DNA from: Amycolatopsis mediterranei
GTDB lineage: Bacteria; Actinomycetota; Actinomycetes; Mycobacteriales; Pseudonocardiaceae
Assembly (NCBI RefSeq): GCF_026017845.1
Contig: NZ_CP100416.1
Location: 8,485,416 to 8,549,415 of the forward strand
Length of the DNA: 64,000 nt
Reading direction: 5' to 3'
Numbering within the stretch: the first letter of the stretch is position 1; every line of letters begins with the position of its first letter. Positions 31,069 to 62,265 of the stretch are shown here, piece after piece. The translations under genes and the position numbers were made by a program. Below the pieces are notes generated by a model. That model searched no databases. It was not told the origin of the DNA and saw nothing but the letters and a program-made list of their open reading frames with translations.

Positions 31069-32174
31069 AGCTCGTCCACGTCTCCCAGCCGGTGACCGCG
31101 GGTGTCGCCGTGGTCGTGCTGGACCTCGCCGTGGCGCAACGGGACCGCGGCTGGTCCGTCACGATCGCCTGCCCGCCGTCCGGCTGGCTCGCCGGACGCG
31201 CCCGCGAACTCGGCATCGACGTCCGTGGCTGGGCCGCGCGCCGCGCACCCGGTCCCGGCTCGGTCGCCGAGGCGCTGCGGCTGCGGCGGCTCCTGGACGA
31301 CCTCGACCCCGACGTCGTCCACCTCCACAGCTCCAAGGCCGGCCTCGCCGGACGGCTGGCCGTGCGCGGCGGCCGCCCCACGGTGTTCCAGCCGCACCTG
31401 TGGTCCTTCGAGACGGCCGGTGGTCCCCTGCGCCGCGCGTCCGCCGCGTGGGAACGCCTCGCGTCGCGGTGGACCGACCTCGTCGTCTGCGTGAGCGACG
31501 ACGAACTGGCCGCCGGCCGGGCCGCCGGGGTGACCGCCGAGGCGGAAGTCGTCTGCAACGGCGTCGACACCACCCGGTTCGTCCCCGGCGACCGGCTCGC
31601 GGCGCGACGGCGGCTCGGGCTGCCCGAACACGCGCCGATCGCCGTCTGCCTCGGCCGGCTCGCCGAGCTCAAGGGCCAGGACCAGCTGCTGTCGGCGTGG
31701 CCCGCGGTGCTGCGGCGGCTGCCGGACGCGCAGCTCGTTCTCGCCGGCGACGGGCCGATGGGCCCGGTCTGGCGCGCGCGGCACCCGGTGGCGGGGCACG
31801 CGTCGGTGCGCTGGCCGGGGCACACCGACGAGCCGGCGGCCTGGTACACCGCCGCGGACGTCGTCGTCCTGCCCTCGCGCGCCGAGGGGATGGCGCTGGT
31901 GCCGCTGGAAGCGATGGCGTGCGCGCGGCCGGTCGTCGCGTTCGACGTCGGCGGGATGCGCCAGAGCGTCGCGGACGCGGGCGCGGTGCTGCCGCCCGGC
32001 GACGTCGGACGGCTCGCCGACGCCGTCGCCGCGCGCCTCGCCGACCCCGGACTGGCCCGGCGCGAAGGCGAACGCGGCCGCCGCCGCGTCGAACTGTCCT
32101 TCGACCGGGGGCGGATGACCGACCAGATCGCCGCCCTCGTCGACAAACTCACCCCGTCGGAGCGCCTCTCGTGA
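31065..32174 (+). CDS. Family 4 glycosyltransferase
   Basis: 369 residues of GT-B fold. VKLVHVSQPVTAGVAVVVLD opens the acceptor domain and DVVHLHSSKAGLAGRLAVRG is the usual mid-domain motif. The donor domain has AVCLGRLAELKGQDQLLSAW, LAGDGPMGP and PSRAEGMALVPLEAMACARPVV, with the GT4 E-x7-E pair. The VHLHSSKAG segment is common in exopolysaccharide GT4 enzymes. The GTG start overlaps the flippase stop; the end overlaps the last glycosyltransferase. Confidence 0.94.
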   Translation: MKLVHVSQPVTAGVAVVVLDLAVAQRDRGWSVTIACPPSGWLAGRARELGIDVRGWAARRAPGPGSVAEALRLRRLLDDLDPDVVHLHSSKAGLAGRLAVRGGRPTVFQPHLWSFETAGGPLRRASAAWERLASRWTDLVVCVSDDELAAGRAAGVTAEAEVVCNGVDTTRFVPGDRLAARRRLGLPEHAPIAVCLGRLAELKGQDQLLSAWPAVLRRLPDAQLVLAGDGPMGPVWRARHPVAGHASVRWPGHTDEPAAWYTAADVVVLPSRAEGMALVPLEAMACARPVVAFDVGGMRQSVADAGAVLPPGDVGRLADAVAARLADPGLARREGERGRRRVELSFDRGRMTDQIAALVDKLTPSERLS

Positions 32175-33301
32175 CCCGCATCGCCTATCTGCTCACCCAG
32201 GACCGCGGCGGTCCGGTGGACGTCACCGTCCGGCTGGCCGCGACGCTGGCCGACGACGGCCACGACGTCCGCGTCTTCGGTCCCGTGCCGGCGCGGGGAG
32301 CCGCGCTGCTCGACGGTCACCACGAGGAGCTCGCGGTGACCGGCAAGGAAGACCTCGCGGCGGCGGGCCGGGCACGGGCGGCGCTGCGGGCGTGGCGGCC
32401 CGACGTAGTGCACGCGCAGGACCGGCGCGCGGGGCTGGTGATCGCGGGGCTGCGGTTCGCCCGCGGTGCCCGGCCGGCTCTGGTCCAGACCTACCACGGC
32501 GTGCCCGACGACGTCGCGGAGCCGTGGTTCCGGGGCGCGCGCGGGGCGGCCGGGCCGTCGGCGTACACGCGGACGGTGCTGGCCGCGGACGCCGTCGTCG
32601 CCCGCGTCCTGGACCGGACGATCGTGCCGGCCGAGGCGATGGGGGCGTTCCTGCGCCGTCGGCTGCGGGTGCCCGCCGGGCGGCTGGTGCACGTCGACAA
32701 CTGCGTCTCCGCTGCTTCGCCGTCTCCACCGCAGGGGCCGGTGCGGCACCTCGTCTTCGCCGGGCTTCTGGTGGAGCGCAAGGGGGCGCTCGACCTGCTG
32801 GCCGCGTTGTCCCTGCCGGGCGTGCTGCCACCGGACGCCCGGCTGACGGTGATCGGCGACGGCCCGGAACGCGCGGCGGCGGAACGGGCCGCGCGGCAGC
32901 CGCCGCTGGCGGGACGCGTGACGTTCCTCGGCTTCCGGCCGGACGTCCCCGCCCTGCTCGCCGGGGCCGACGCGCTGGTCCTGCCGTCCACAATGGAGCA
33001 ACAGCCGCTGGTGGTGGCCGAAGCGATGGCCGCGGGCAAGCCGGTCCTGGCCACGGCCACCGGCGGCGTCCCCGCCATGCTCGACGTCCCGGGCACCCCC
33101 GCGTTCCTGGCCCCACCGGGCGACGTCCCGGCCCTCGCCGACCGCCTACGGGCCCTGTTCGCGGAGCCCGACCCGGGCCGCCTGGGCCGGCTCCTCGCCG
33201 AACGCGCCCACGCCCGCTACCGCCCGGAGGCCTGCGCCCGCCGTCACCTGGACCTGTACGACCAGCTGACCAGGTCGTGTCGACCCGCCAATCACGGGTG
33301 A
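32171..33301 (+). CDS. Family 4 glycosyltransferase, last gene of the operon
   Basis: 376 residues of GT-B fold: TRIAYLLTQDRGGPVDVTV opens the protein, VVHAQDRRAGLVIAGLRFA follows, and the donor domain carries FAGLLVERKGALDLLAAL, VIGDGPERAAAERAA and PSTMEQQPLVVAEAMAAGKPVL. The last eight residues (SCRPANHG) and the stop are encoded by the first part of a 21-bp repeat array (33275-33431), so the natural C-terminus may have been altered by the insertion of that repeat. It overlaps the previous gene by four bases. Confidence 0.92.
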   Translation: MTRIAYLLTQDRGGPVDVTVRLAATLADDGHDVRVFGPVPARGAALLDGHHEELAVTGKEDLAAAGRARAALRAWRPDVVHAQDRRAGLVIAGLRFARGARPALVQTYHGVPDDVAEPWFRGARGAAGPSAYTRTVLAADAVVARVLDRTIVPAEAMGAFLRRRLRVPAGRLVHVDNCVSAASPSPPQGPVRHLVFAGLLVERKGALDLLAALSLPGVLPPDARLTVIGDGPERAAAERAARQPPLAGRVTFLGFRPDVPALLAGADALVLPSTMEQQPLVVAEAMAAGKPVLATATGGVPAMLDVPGTPAFLAPPGDVPALADRLRALFAEPDPGRLGRLLAERAHARYRPEACARRHLDLYDQLTRSCRPANHG

Positions 33302-33431
33302 CGACCCTCCGATCACGGGTGATGTCCCTCTGATCACCGGGCTCCGCGTGACCCCAAGGGGAACTCGCGTGATCGGGGAGGCATCTAGCGTGATTGGGAG
33401 GTCATCTCGCGTGATTGGCGGGACGACACGA
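33275..33431. repeat. Inverted array of 21-bp repeats between convergent genes
   Basis: Plus-oriented units start at 33288, 33309 and 33330 (CCAATCACGGGTGACG, CCGATCACGGGTGATG and a shorter CTGATCACCGG). Inverted units start at 33403, 33382, 33361 and, weakly, 33340 (CATCTCGCGTGATTGG and relatives). Every step is exactly 21 bases. The outer ends (33275-33301 and 33405-33431) form a 27-bp inverted repeat with three or four mismatches. The array fills the whole gap between two convergent genes. The same unit recurs at 62208-62265. Confidence 0.85.
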
Positions 33432-33432
33432 G

Positions 33433-34821
33433 TCAGCGGGCCCAGAGGCGGCCGATTCGGAACTCGTCGCGGGTGATTCGCCAGGTGCCGCGTTTCACGA
33501 GCTGCTGCGGATCGACCAGGATGATCGCGTCCGCGGCTTCCAACGTGAGCGAGGGCGGAGCCGGGGTTGAGGTGGGTGCCGAGGTGCGGGTCGAGGTCGG
33601 CGCTGAGGTGGGGGTGGAGGTTCGCGTGGGGGTTGGGGTGGGGGTTGGGGTCGGTGCGGGGGCGCCGGGCTTGACCAAGCCCGGCGGGGGCTCCACCGTC
33701 TGGGTGGACGCCGTCGTGTTGACCGCGACCCAGCCGTGGGAAAACGTGCGGGTCCAGACGCCGTTGGGCAGCCGGCTCGCCGCGTCGATCGCCTCACCCA
33801 GCCCGGAATCCTGCAACGCCGACCACTCCGGGTCGCGGTAGTCGTCGGTGGTCGCGCGGGTCCAGCACGTGCGGGGGCCGGCGAGCAGGGCCGCGCTCGC
33901 GTAGCCGGAACGCTCCTCGCGCGCGTTGTGCGTCCGCGTGACCAGCAGCAGCAGGGACTCACCGAGGGCGGCCTGCGCGCGCAGCTCCTGGAACTCGTTG
34001 CCGCGGAAGGTCAGCAGGCCACCGGTGCCGCCGTTCTCGCGGAACCCGAAGTTCTCCTCCATCGCGCCGCCGAAGCGGGAGTGCGCGGTCCAGCGGCCCG
34101 GCACCAGGTGCGTCTCGGACACGTTGGGCACCATGAGCTTCTGCGCGTTCGTGAGGGCGTCGCCTGCCTTGGACAGGAACGCGTCCAGGCCGTCGCGGAG
34201 CTTGCGGTCGGTCTCCGCGACGTTCGCCGTGCCCGCGAGCACCGCGGACGAATAATGACTCAGCGAGTTGAAGTCGTTGTCCGCGAGCACGCCGTCCCAG
34301 CCCTCGCGGGTCACCTCCGCCACGACGGCGTCGGTCCAGGCCTGCTGGTAGTCCGGGTTCCACACCGTCATCTGCCAGTGCCGCGGGTAGCCCTGCCACT
34401 CGATCCGCCGCCCGTTGACGTCCTGGGCGAACCACTCCGGGTGGTGTTCCTGCGCGGCGACGTAGCCGATCCCGCTCGGCAGGAAGACCGCGTCCTGGCC
34501 GCCGTCGACCGCGCCCGGGTAGTTGCGCGTGCTCGAGAGGTCCTTGTACACCAGCACCTTCACCCGCGAGTTGAGCTGGTGGAGGCGGCGCATGGCCGCG
34601 CCCTGGTCGGCGTTGAGCACCACGACCTGGTAGCGCTTGGCCGCCAGCTCGATCTCCTGCGCCGTCGGCGGCTGACCGATCCCGTACCACCACGCGCAGG
34701 GCGCGAGCGGTTTCGGCGGCGGGACCGCGATCTCCTGCGCCGAACTGGCGACGCAGCCGGCGAGGCAGCCGGCCAGCAGCACGAACGCGGCCGTCCAGCA
34801 CGCCACCGGGTGGTGGCGCAT
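33433..34821 (-). CDS. Lipoprotein with GHL15-like putative glycoside hydrolase domain
   Basis: 462 residues. A lipoprotein signal (AAFVLLAGCLAGC, lipidated Cys near residue 20 or 24) precedes a TIM-barrel-like domain: YQVVVLNADQGAAM, VKVLVYKDLSSTRNYP, HHPEWFAQDVNGRRIEWQGY, PRHWQMTVWNPDYQQAW and GWDGVLADNDFNSL. This series resembles hypothetical glycosyl hydrolase family 15 (GHL15). A Pro/Thr/Ser-rich linker of about 35 residues (PTPTPTPTPTRTSTPTSAP) leads to a short C-terminal segment (ADAIILVDPQQLVKRGTW). The activity is unproven. ATG 34821 overlaps the stop of the sugar-phosphate transferase (TGATG), so it belongs to the polysaccharide locus and may trim or release the polymer. Confidence 0.7.
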   Translation of the reverse strand: MRHHPVACWTAAFVLLAGCLAGCVASSAQEIAVPPPKPLAPCAWWYGIGQPPTAQEIELAAKRYQVVVLNADQGAAMRRLHQLNSRVKVLVYKDLSSTRNYPGAVDGGQDAVFLPSGIGYVAAQEHHPEWFAQDVNGRRIEWQGYPRHWQMTVWNPDYQQAWTDAVVAEVTREGWDGVLADNDFNSLSHYSSAVLAGTANVAETDRKLRDGLDAFLSKAGDALTNAQKLMVPNVSETHLVPGRWTAHSRFGGAMEENFGFRENGGTGGLLTFRGNEFQELRAQAALGESLLLLVTRTHNAREERSGYASAALLAGPRTCWTRATTDDYRDPEWSALQDSGLGEAIDAASRLPNGVWTRTFSHGWVAVNTTASTQTVEPPPGLVKPGAPAPTPTPTPTPTRTSTPTSAPTSTRTSAPTSTPAPPSLTLEAADAIILVDPQQLVKRGTWRITRDEFRIGRLWAR

Positions 34822-36251
34822 CAGCGTTGCCTTCGGCACAGCAGTTCTCCCACCGTGAGGATGATGATCTTGACGTCGAGCCACAACGACCAGTTCGCGA
34901 TGTAGTAGTTGTCGTAGCGCGCCCGGTCCGCGATCGAGGTGTCGCCGCGCAGGCCGTGCACCTGCGCCAGGCCGGTCAGCCCGGTCGGCACCCGGTGCCG
35001 GGCCCAGTACAGGTCGTGGACGGCGGAGAACTCGTGCACGAACACCGGCCGCTCCGGCCGCGGGCCGACCAGTGACATGTCCCCGCGCACGACGTTCCAC
35101 AGCTGCGGCAGTTCGTCCAAAGAGGACCGGCGCAGGAAGCGGCCGACCGGGCCGACCCGGTGATCGCCGACGACCGACCAGCGCGTCTGCGAATCGTCGA
35201 CGGCGGCCTGCCGCACGCTGCGCAGCTTGTAGAGCACGAACGTGCCGCCGTCCATCCCGACGCGCACCTGCCGGAAGAAGACCGGGAACCCGCTCTCCAC
35301 CGCGACGGCGAGCGCGCAGACCGCGATGACCGGCGCGAGGACGACGAGCGCGGCCGCGGCCAGCGTCGTTTCGACGGCTCGCTTGACCCACCAGCTCGGC
35401 CGCCGGGTCGGCGCGCCGCCCAGCCACACCAGCGGGTAGCTGCGGAGCCGGTCGACGCCCGGCCCGTCCGGGCAGAGCTCGAACAGGTGCGGCAGCACCA
35501 GGGTGACGCACCCGAGGCGGTGGGCGGTGATGGCGGCGTCGACGATCGCGCCGCCCGAGTCGTCGGCGGGGGCGAGGATCACCGTGCCCGCGCGCAGCCG
35601 GGCGATGGCCCCGGTGAGGTCGCCGTCGATCCGCTCGACCGGCAGGCCGGGCGGCACCGGCTCCGGGCCGGACGCCGCGACGCCGACCGGCAGCAGCCCG
35701 AATTCGGGGTGCTCCAGCATGGTGCGGACCAGTTCGCCGCCGATCCGGCCGGACCCCACCACGACGGCCCGGTCGCAGCGCCGCAGCCGCCGCCGGCCCC
35801 AGCGGCCGAACGCGAAGACCGCCGGCCGGGCCGCTTCGCTGAGCACGGCGAAGCAGAGGACCACTTCCTGCATCCGCGCCGTGTCGTCGCCGTCCATCCC
35901 CGCCACCAGCCCGAAGCCGGTGACGAGCGCGAACGCCAGCGCGGTGGCGGTGACCGAGCGCGGCAGGTCCTGCAGCCAGGAGAGCCAGAGGCGGCGGCGG
36001 TGGACGCGGCCGGCCACCCGGGCCCCCGCGAGGGCCGCGGCGGTCACCGCCGCGCACGCCGGAACGGGCCCGGTCCGCAGCACCGCGGCCAGCCAGGCGG
36101 CGCCGTCGACGGCGACGAGCAGCACGGCCACGGCGTTGACCCTGGCGAGCAGCGGGCGGGCGCGGACGGCGTCGCGCGGCCGGTCGCCCGGCCGGACCCG
36201 CCGCTGGGCCGGCACCGCTTCGGTGACGACCGTGTCCCTGAGTTCAGTCAC
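34821..36251 (-). CDS. Exopolysaccharide priming sugar-phosphate transferase (WbaP/WcaJ type)
   Basis: 476 residues. The N-terminal half has four hydrophobic helices and a CoA-binding-like Rossmann region (CDRAVVVGSGRIGGELVRTM). A long helix near residue 285 (LAAAALVVLAPVIAVCALAV) leads into the catalytic domain with VRVGMDGGTFVLYKLRS, SLDELPQLWNVVRGDMSLVG and GLTGLAQVHGLRGDTSI, the signature of polyprenyl-phosphate hexose-1-phosphate transferases. It starts the repeat unit on undecaprenyl phosphate for the operon at 23.4-33.3 kb. GTG 36251 start. It shares a 314-base divergent control region with the GT2 gene. Confidence 0.94.
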   Translation of the reverse strand: MTELRDTVVTEAVPAQRRVRPGDRPRDAVRARPLLARVNAVAVLLVAVDGAAWLAAVLRTGPVPACAAVTAAALAGARVAGRVHRRRLWLSWLQDLPRSVTATALAFALVTGFGLVAGMDGDDTARMQEVVLCFAVLSEAARPAVFAFGRWGRRRLRRCDRAVVVGSGRIGGELVRTMLEHPEFGLLPVGVAASGPEPVPPGLPVERIDGDLTGAIARLRAGTVILAPADDSGGAIVDAAITAHRLGCVTLVLPHLFELCPDGPGVDRLRSYPLVWLGGAPTRRPSWWVKRAVETTLAAAALVVLAPVIAVCALAVAVESGFPVFFRQVRVGMDGGTFVLYKLRSVRQAAVDDSQTRWSVVGDHRVGPVGRFLRRSSLDELPQLWNVVRGDMSLVGPRPERPVFVHEFSAVHDLYWARHRVPTGLTGLAQVHGLRGDTSIADRARYDNYYIANWSLWLDVKIIILTVGELLCRRQR

Positions 36252-62174: not shown

Positions 62175-62207
62175 CTTCTGGGCTCGGCCTGCACCGTGAT
62201 GCCCCGC

Positions 62208-62265
62208 CAATCACGCGAGATGCCTCTCCAATCACGCGAGATGCCCCGCTGATCACGCGAGATGC
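62208..62265. repeat. Tandem 21-bp repeats, three units, second locus
   Basis: CCAATCACGCGAGATG at 62208-62223 and 62229-62244, and CTGATCACGCGAGATG at 62250-62265, spaced exactly 21 bases. It is the same unit and period as the array at 33275-33431. It lies 33 bases after the TPR gene stop and upstream of the SigB-type promoter. Confidence 0.85.

Follow-up and report, generated by a model that had tools for sequence, protein, structure and literature searches.

A dispersed family of 21-bp-pitch repeat arrays at gene 3′ ends in Amycolatopsis and other Pseudonocardiaceae

Polar roadblock terminators, such as the TTF-I Sal boxes located 3′ of rRNA genes, consist of tandem protein sites, and iterons are arrays of repeats of about 17–22 bp found at plasmid origins. 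The REP/BIME sequences associated with RAYT in Enterobacteria, Pseudomonas, and Stenotrophomonas are short imperfect palindromes in which a broken pair gives the orientation. These high-copy repeats are extragenic, occupy the 3′ ends of genes as well as convergent gaps, and form clusters of species-specific units, which alternate and have varied spacers. CGTC-tagged REPs lack a dedicated transposase and have a CGTC tag, a stem of 8–9 bp, a loop of 4–5 nt, and a CCA tail; their clusters are rare, and they were reported from other phyla, with Actinobacteria and Amycolatopsis unmentioned (PMC3733652). In this work, we show that an array found in Amycolatopsis mediterranei is one member of a large dispersed family of blocks with a 21-bp pitch at gene 3′ ends in Pseudonocardiaceae. 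Among open-licence papers, we found no report of 21-bp arrays in Amycolatopsis or Pseudonocardiaceae.

The window (i.e., the whole stretch of 64,000 nucleotides analyzed) covers positions 8,485,416–8,549,415 of the host genome, a single contig of 10.6 Mb. Its array (33276–33430) consists of a + block facing a − block inside the convergent gap (33302–33432) between genes that, according to Pfam, encode a GT4-type glycosyltransferase (32171–33301, +) and a GHL15 hypothetical glycosyl hydrolase (33433–34839, −). The initial annotation had described seven units in two opposed series of three and four, each with an exact 21-base step, and we found precisely this arrangement. The + cores are ATCACGGGTGAC (33291–33302), ATCACGGGTGAT (33312–33323), and ATCACCGGGCTC (33333–33344); the − cores are GTCACGCGGAGC (33341–33352), ATCACGCGAGTT (33362–33373), ATCACGCTAGAT (33383–33394), and ATCACGCGAGAT (33404–33415). 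The innermost core of either series (at 33333 and 33341) is degenerate, and these two overlap at the apex. Only the core at 33404–33415 is an exact copy of the consensus, the remaining cores being off by a few bases. The array also encodes the last eight residues of the glycosyltransferase (33275–33298), as had been noted, and the TGA stop codon of this gene (33299–33301) forms positions 9–11 of the first core.

Both blocks have a sharp 5′ edge. The edge of the + block (33276–33296) has a CGTGTC half-core followed by a 9-nt spacer and ATCACG (edge consensus derived from 97 edges), and 2 nt separate that of the − block (33410–33430) from the opposing gene's stop codon. The outer inverted repeat proposed earlier was recovered, with CGTGTCGWCCCGCCAATCACG exact at both edges (0.02 matches expected by chance, even allowing three mismatches); a repeat search gave inverted-repeat arms of 63 nt with 78% complementarity. 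At no more than two mismatches, 12 core matches were counted, compared with 3.7 expected, and none of 100 shuffles reached 12. No Rfam match exceeded the gathering score, the matches to microRNA precursors and CRISPR repeats being sub-threshold. Inside the GHL15 gene, positions 33659–33697 match CRISPR-DR29 at 20.8 bits (gathering score 39), probably by chance. A second array in the window (62195–62265, +) has a single orientation, with a CGTGAT 5′ edge and three exact cores (62210, 62231, and 62252); it is located in a co-directional gap, and its first core lies 35 nt past the stop of a + gene.

Searching the host and its relatives for the unit at 21-bp spacing, as the initial annotation had suggested, yielded a genome-wide family with exact spacing and an extreme preference for 3′ ends, rather than two loci only or irregular spacing. 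The two-unit motif (at most three mismatches) has 80 matches in the host genome, compared with 0 for the reversed pattern. The approximate numbers of gaps with an array in a 400-kb host sample are 5 of 26 (convergent), 3 of 123 (co-directional), and 0 of 55 (divergent); based on inspection of the listed repeats, these counts extrapolate to roughly 200 arrays per genome. Among 60 Amycolatopsis genomes, 29 have the two-unit motif, with 0 to 179 matches per genome. The exact motif was found only in Amycolatopsis across one genome per species for 85,000 species (91 stretches), and a scan of 399 genomes of the order gave only Amycolatopsis. A phage origin was rejected because none of 2.9 million viral contigs gave a match.

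The oriented class-1 unit is ATCACGCGAGAT followed by (GCC or CCG)CCTCCA, in which a near-palindromic core precedes a spacer that is pyrimidine-polar; the palindrome of the preferred core is broken by an A-A pair. The class-2 unit, GGTACGCGAGTCGTCCGTCCA, has the same 21-bp pitch and is often intermixed with class 1 within one array. Isolated cores, which were sought as possible marks of a putative binding protein's own promoter, are few among the 53 exact-core matches listed. In the genome G042 (contig C54, 116196–116312), five or six near-identical perfect-palindrome units are consecutive, apparently through recent expansion, and a long class-2 array of the host (L325, about 3,145,190) is broken by a run of N.

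The helical pitch of these arrays is fixed and under constraint. Neighboring units in the same orientation are exactly 21 bp apart in 427 cases and 20 or 22 bp apart in 3, in a count for which the motif search itself selected one neighbor pair per locus. Based on the divergence of spacers between neighboring units (about 30%) and the indel:substitution ratio of the flanks (near 0.05), about 60 pitch shifts are expected (Poisson p about 3e-22 for the three observed). Within orthologous arrays, the most common larger indel is exactly 21 bp, one whole unit. Whole-unit duplication could account for part of the exact pitch. Each block opens abruptly at a half-core (either CGTGTC or CGTGAT), followed by a spacer and then the cores, and has a ragged 3′ edge. 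Distances at opposed junctions peak at 41 bp for divergent blocks and at 29, 50–51, and 71–72 bp for convergent blocks. The phase between opposed blocks is therefore imperfect, these inverted junctions falling at 8–9 or 20 mod 21.

For gene context, genes were called with a purpose-written codon-usage gene caller rather than taken from database annotation. Across many species, both neighbors were called for 111 arrays, of which 75 are in convergent, 35 in co-directional, and 1 in divergent gaps, compared with 84, 156, and 119, respectively, for background gaps (Fisher p about 3e-15). Host arrays with class-1 units are never in divergent gaps (0 of 39), compared with 24 of 55 array-free gaps, and this absence is also expected of a neutral repeat. 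Two class-2-only host arrays (L152 1363–1554 and L154 1416–1533) are in divergent gaps, contrary to the 3′-end rule of class 1. About 27 of 97 block 5′ edges sit 0–5 nt past a sense stop codon, and in 22 cases, with both orientations included, the stop codon and the repeat share a register. Arrays in convergent gaps include 15 with a + block before a − block, 19 with the reverse order, and 33 with a single orientation. A strict requirement for sense orientation, as in a Rho-like reading, was rejected, because arrays antisense to both neighbors are as frequent in convergent gaps as sense arrays; that orientation matters little is as expected of near-symmetric DNA sites.

At the junction of the window array, close relatives (L075, L122, and L123) have arrays with differing unit numbers, and more distant Amycolatopsis have none, the two genes abutting or overlapping in most of them. 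Of the host loci that were examined first, about half have an array at the matching position in at least one other species. Among 19 orthologous pairs, divergence is 8.3% in cores, 26.9% in spacers, and 13.3% in the mostly coding flanks, the core value being understated by a motif-based definition that favors conserved cores. In the close relative G017 (L122, 2725–2825), the orthologous array ends midway through a − unit in unrelated sequence near a contig end, perhaps an insertion sequence.

The pitch extends beyond Amycolatopsis. We used a sequence-blind lag autocorrelation of intergenic gaps, based on samples of 160–400 kb per genome in place of whole genomes. In convergent gaps, lag 21 is the strongest in four array-bearing genomes of three genera (the host, G059, and the non-Amycolatopsis G473 and G572), the second-strongest lag is 42 in three of them (the host, G473, and G572), and 42 and 63 bp come next after 21 in the third genus. 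In G038, a genome rich in arrays, lag 21 ranks third, narrowly behind 30 and 9. The lag-21 peak is absent or weak in divergent gaps, being the nominal top only in G473 (0.285, compared with a median of 0.273), and in the array-less Amycolatopsis G003 and the other-family G071, lag 21 is not clearly above other multiples of three. A degenerate two-unit pattern occurs in 25 of 259 Pseudonocardiaceae genomes (10 of 46 sampled genera), compared with one match in total for the reversed control. The unit sequence varies by genus (CGCGAGTCCCCCGCCCAGGCG, AGCGAGTCGCCCCTCCCGGCA, and others), with the pitch, the 3′-end position, and an edge just past stop codons retained. The near-palindromic core emphasized by the initial annotation holds for the class-1 unit of Amycolatopsis and not for this wider 21-bp family. 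In two other Pseudonocardiaceae genera, 21-bp arrays with other unit sequences are located in convergent gaps (L218 1902–2356, L227 2049–2460, L344 1000–1102, and L349 14186–14359); the arrays of G572 begin a few bases past stop codons, and the blocks of L344 and L349, outside Amycolatopsis, start 0–5 nt past stops.

Compared with the described systems, the Amycolatopsis arrays share with REP/BIME the extragenic, clustered, high-copy occurrence, the placement at 3′ ends of genes and within convergent gaps, the species-specific units, and, in the class-1 unit only, the short imperfect palindrome oriented by a broken pair. However, membership in RAYT-linked REPs was rejected. A profile search for RAYT (Y1_Tnp, PF01797) found none in 20 Amycolatopsis genomes and detected the positive controls, the unit consensus has no GTAG-type tag, and a single unit forms no stem-loop of its own; furthermore, the units are head-to-tail at an exact 21-bp pitch. 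Like CGTC-tagged REPs, the arrays are extragenic and palindromic and have no dedicated transposase, but they form long tandem blocks, and the unit lacks the CGTC-type stem-loop. The likeness to TTF-I Sal boxes, i.e., tandem short sites right behind genes, is a functional analogy only; the arrays lie behind many genes, use both orientations, and would be bound by a putative protein. As in iterons, direct repeats are spaced at about two helical turns, but the arrays are dispersed over many chromosomal gene ends instead of one origin.

Several explanations were weighed against these patterns. Chance low complexity or a by-product of coding sequence is hardly credible: high-GC genomes do give multiple-of-three lags in mis-called coding sequence, as in G071, but this reading is refuted by reversed-pattern controls, which gave 0 in nearly every scan (the one match came from the degenerate pattern); the 42- and 63-bp lags of the third genus also speak against it. 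A bidirectional RNA terminator or 3′-UTR stabilizer, in which a long hairpin of the transcribed array would end or protect both converging transcripts, appears unlikely as a general explanation. The very large hairpin predicted by the initial annotation does form in silico, as the window array folds at −108 kcal/mol, and opposed-block arrays have far more stable folds than dinucleotide shuffles (median z about −8; array-free convergent gaps, −4.9). The many arrays that begin directly past stop codons and fill convergent gaps, and the mild sense bias of units in co-directional gaps (90:58), also agree with a terminator. However, the single-orientation arrays, about half of the total, show no folding beyond that of shuffles (median z about −0.8), even when they fill an entire short convergent gap, and partner spacers lack covariation, being no more complementary than non-partners. 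These two results indicate that the hairpin is not the common property of the family; the core, the pitch, and the 3′-end position are. Moreover, the A-A pair interrupts the palindrome of the preferred core, and no T-run was found beside the window-array hairpin. The proposed bidirectional terminator is therefore possible for the opposed-block half, including the window array, and leaves the unfolded single-orientation arrays unexplained.

The mobile repeat of the initial annotation was kept as a rival, in the form of a short, non-autonomous, REP/BIME-like selfish repeat that would be spread by an enzyme or by recombination and slippage, persist at 3′ ends, insertions elsewhere being harmful, and have no host function. 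We consider this possible, albeit doubtful. The family is limited to one lineage with a very uneven copy number, block edges are sharp, adjacent units are the most similar, and REPs elsewhere have the same 3′-end bias (PMC3733652, PMC1525189). The near-zero gap at the window junction in array-less relatives implies that DNA was added, and +/− arrays such as that of the window, and only those, have terminal inverted repeats (21 bp) as a MITE would. Against it are the lack of PF01797 in the 20 Amycolatopsis genomes searched and of matches in the viral contigs, array positions conserved between species, and the constraint on core and pitch. Furthermore, we found no target-site duplication in 18 arrays (2–9 bp tested; no excess over shuffled flanks). 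A Tn7-like or MITE insertion suggested by the TGTCG-like edge was rejected for this reason, and because conservation begins two bases earlier, at CG. A selfish origin could coexist with a protein-binding role, as REPs elsewhere bind host proteins (PMC2817692).

We tentatively favor a DNA-binding array that is helically phased and placed at transcription boundaries over both the selfish repeat and the RNA terminator, because the pitch is conserved as the sequence changes, the cores are constrained, the arrays are placed past stops, and orientation is nearly indifferent. The protein-binding array suggested by the initial annotation thus gains ground. Every unit would be a binding site for a candidate sequence-specific DNA-binding protein, and two helical turns between sites would place all bound copies on one face of the DNA. 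Such phased copies may form a cooperative filament or roadblock, which would stop transcription exiting one gene, or insulate its converging neighbor from it. Where blocks face each other, the transcript could also form a long hairpin, which might contribute bidirectional intrinsic termination. The presence of arrays in only part of the Pseudonocardiaceae implies that any function is dispensable. A more specific proposal, which we regard as rather speculative, is a transcription-boundary system of Pseudonocardiaceae in which the candidate protein and its 21-bp-phased sites past stops co-evolve, such that transcription is ended or insulated without a hairpin and the pitch is kept while the site sequence turns over.

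The genus Amycolatopsis produces rifamycin and vancomycin-type antibiotics, and, to our knowledge, how transcription ends between converging genes of high-GC actinomycetes is poorly resolved. The arrays provide a defined, sequence-recognizable element right past stop codons, and their exact pitch makes the protein hypothesis directly testable. If they are selfish repeats, they would represent a REP-like class that lacks the transposase known for REPs and has a tandem, phased organization, in a family for which we found no earlier description. The fixed spacing and the genus-varying letters at gene ends point to an undescribed element that marks gene ends in Amycolatopsis and its relatives.
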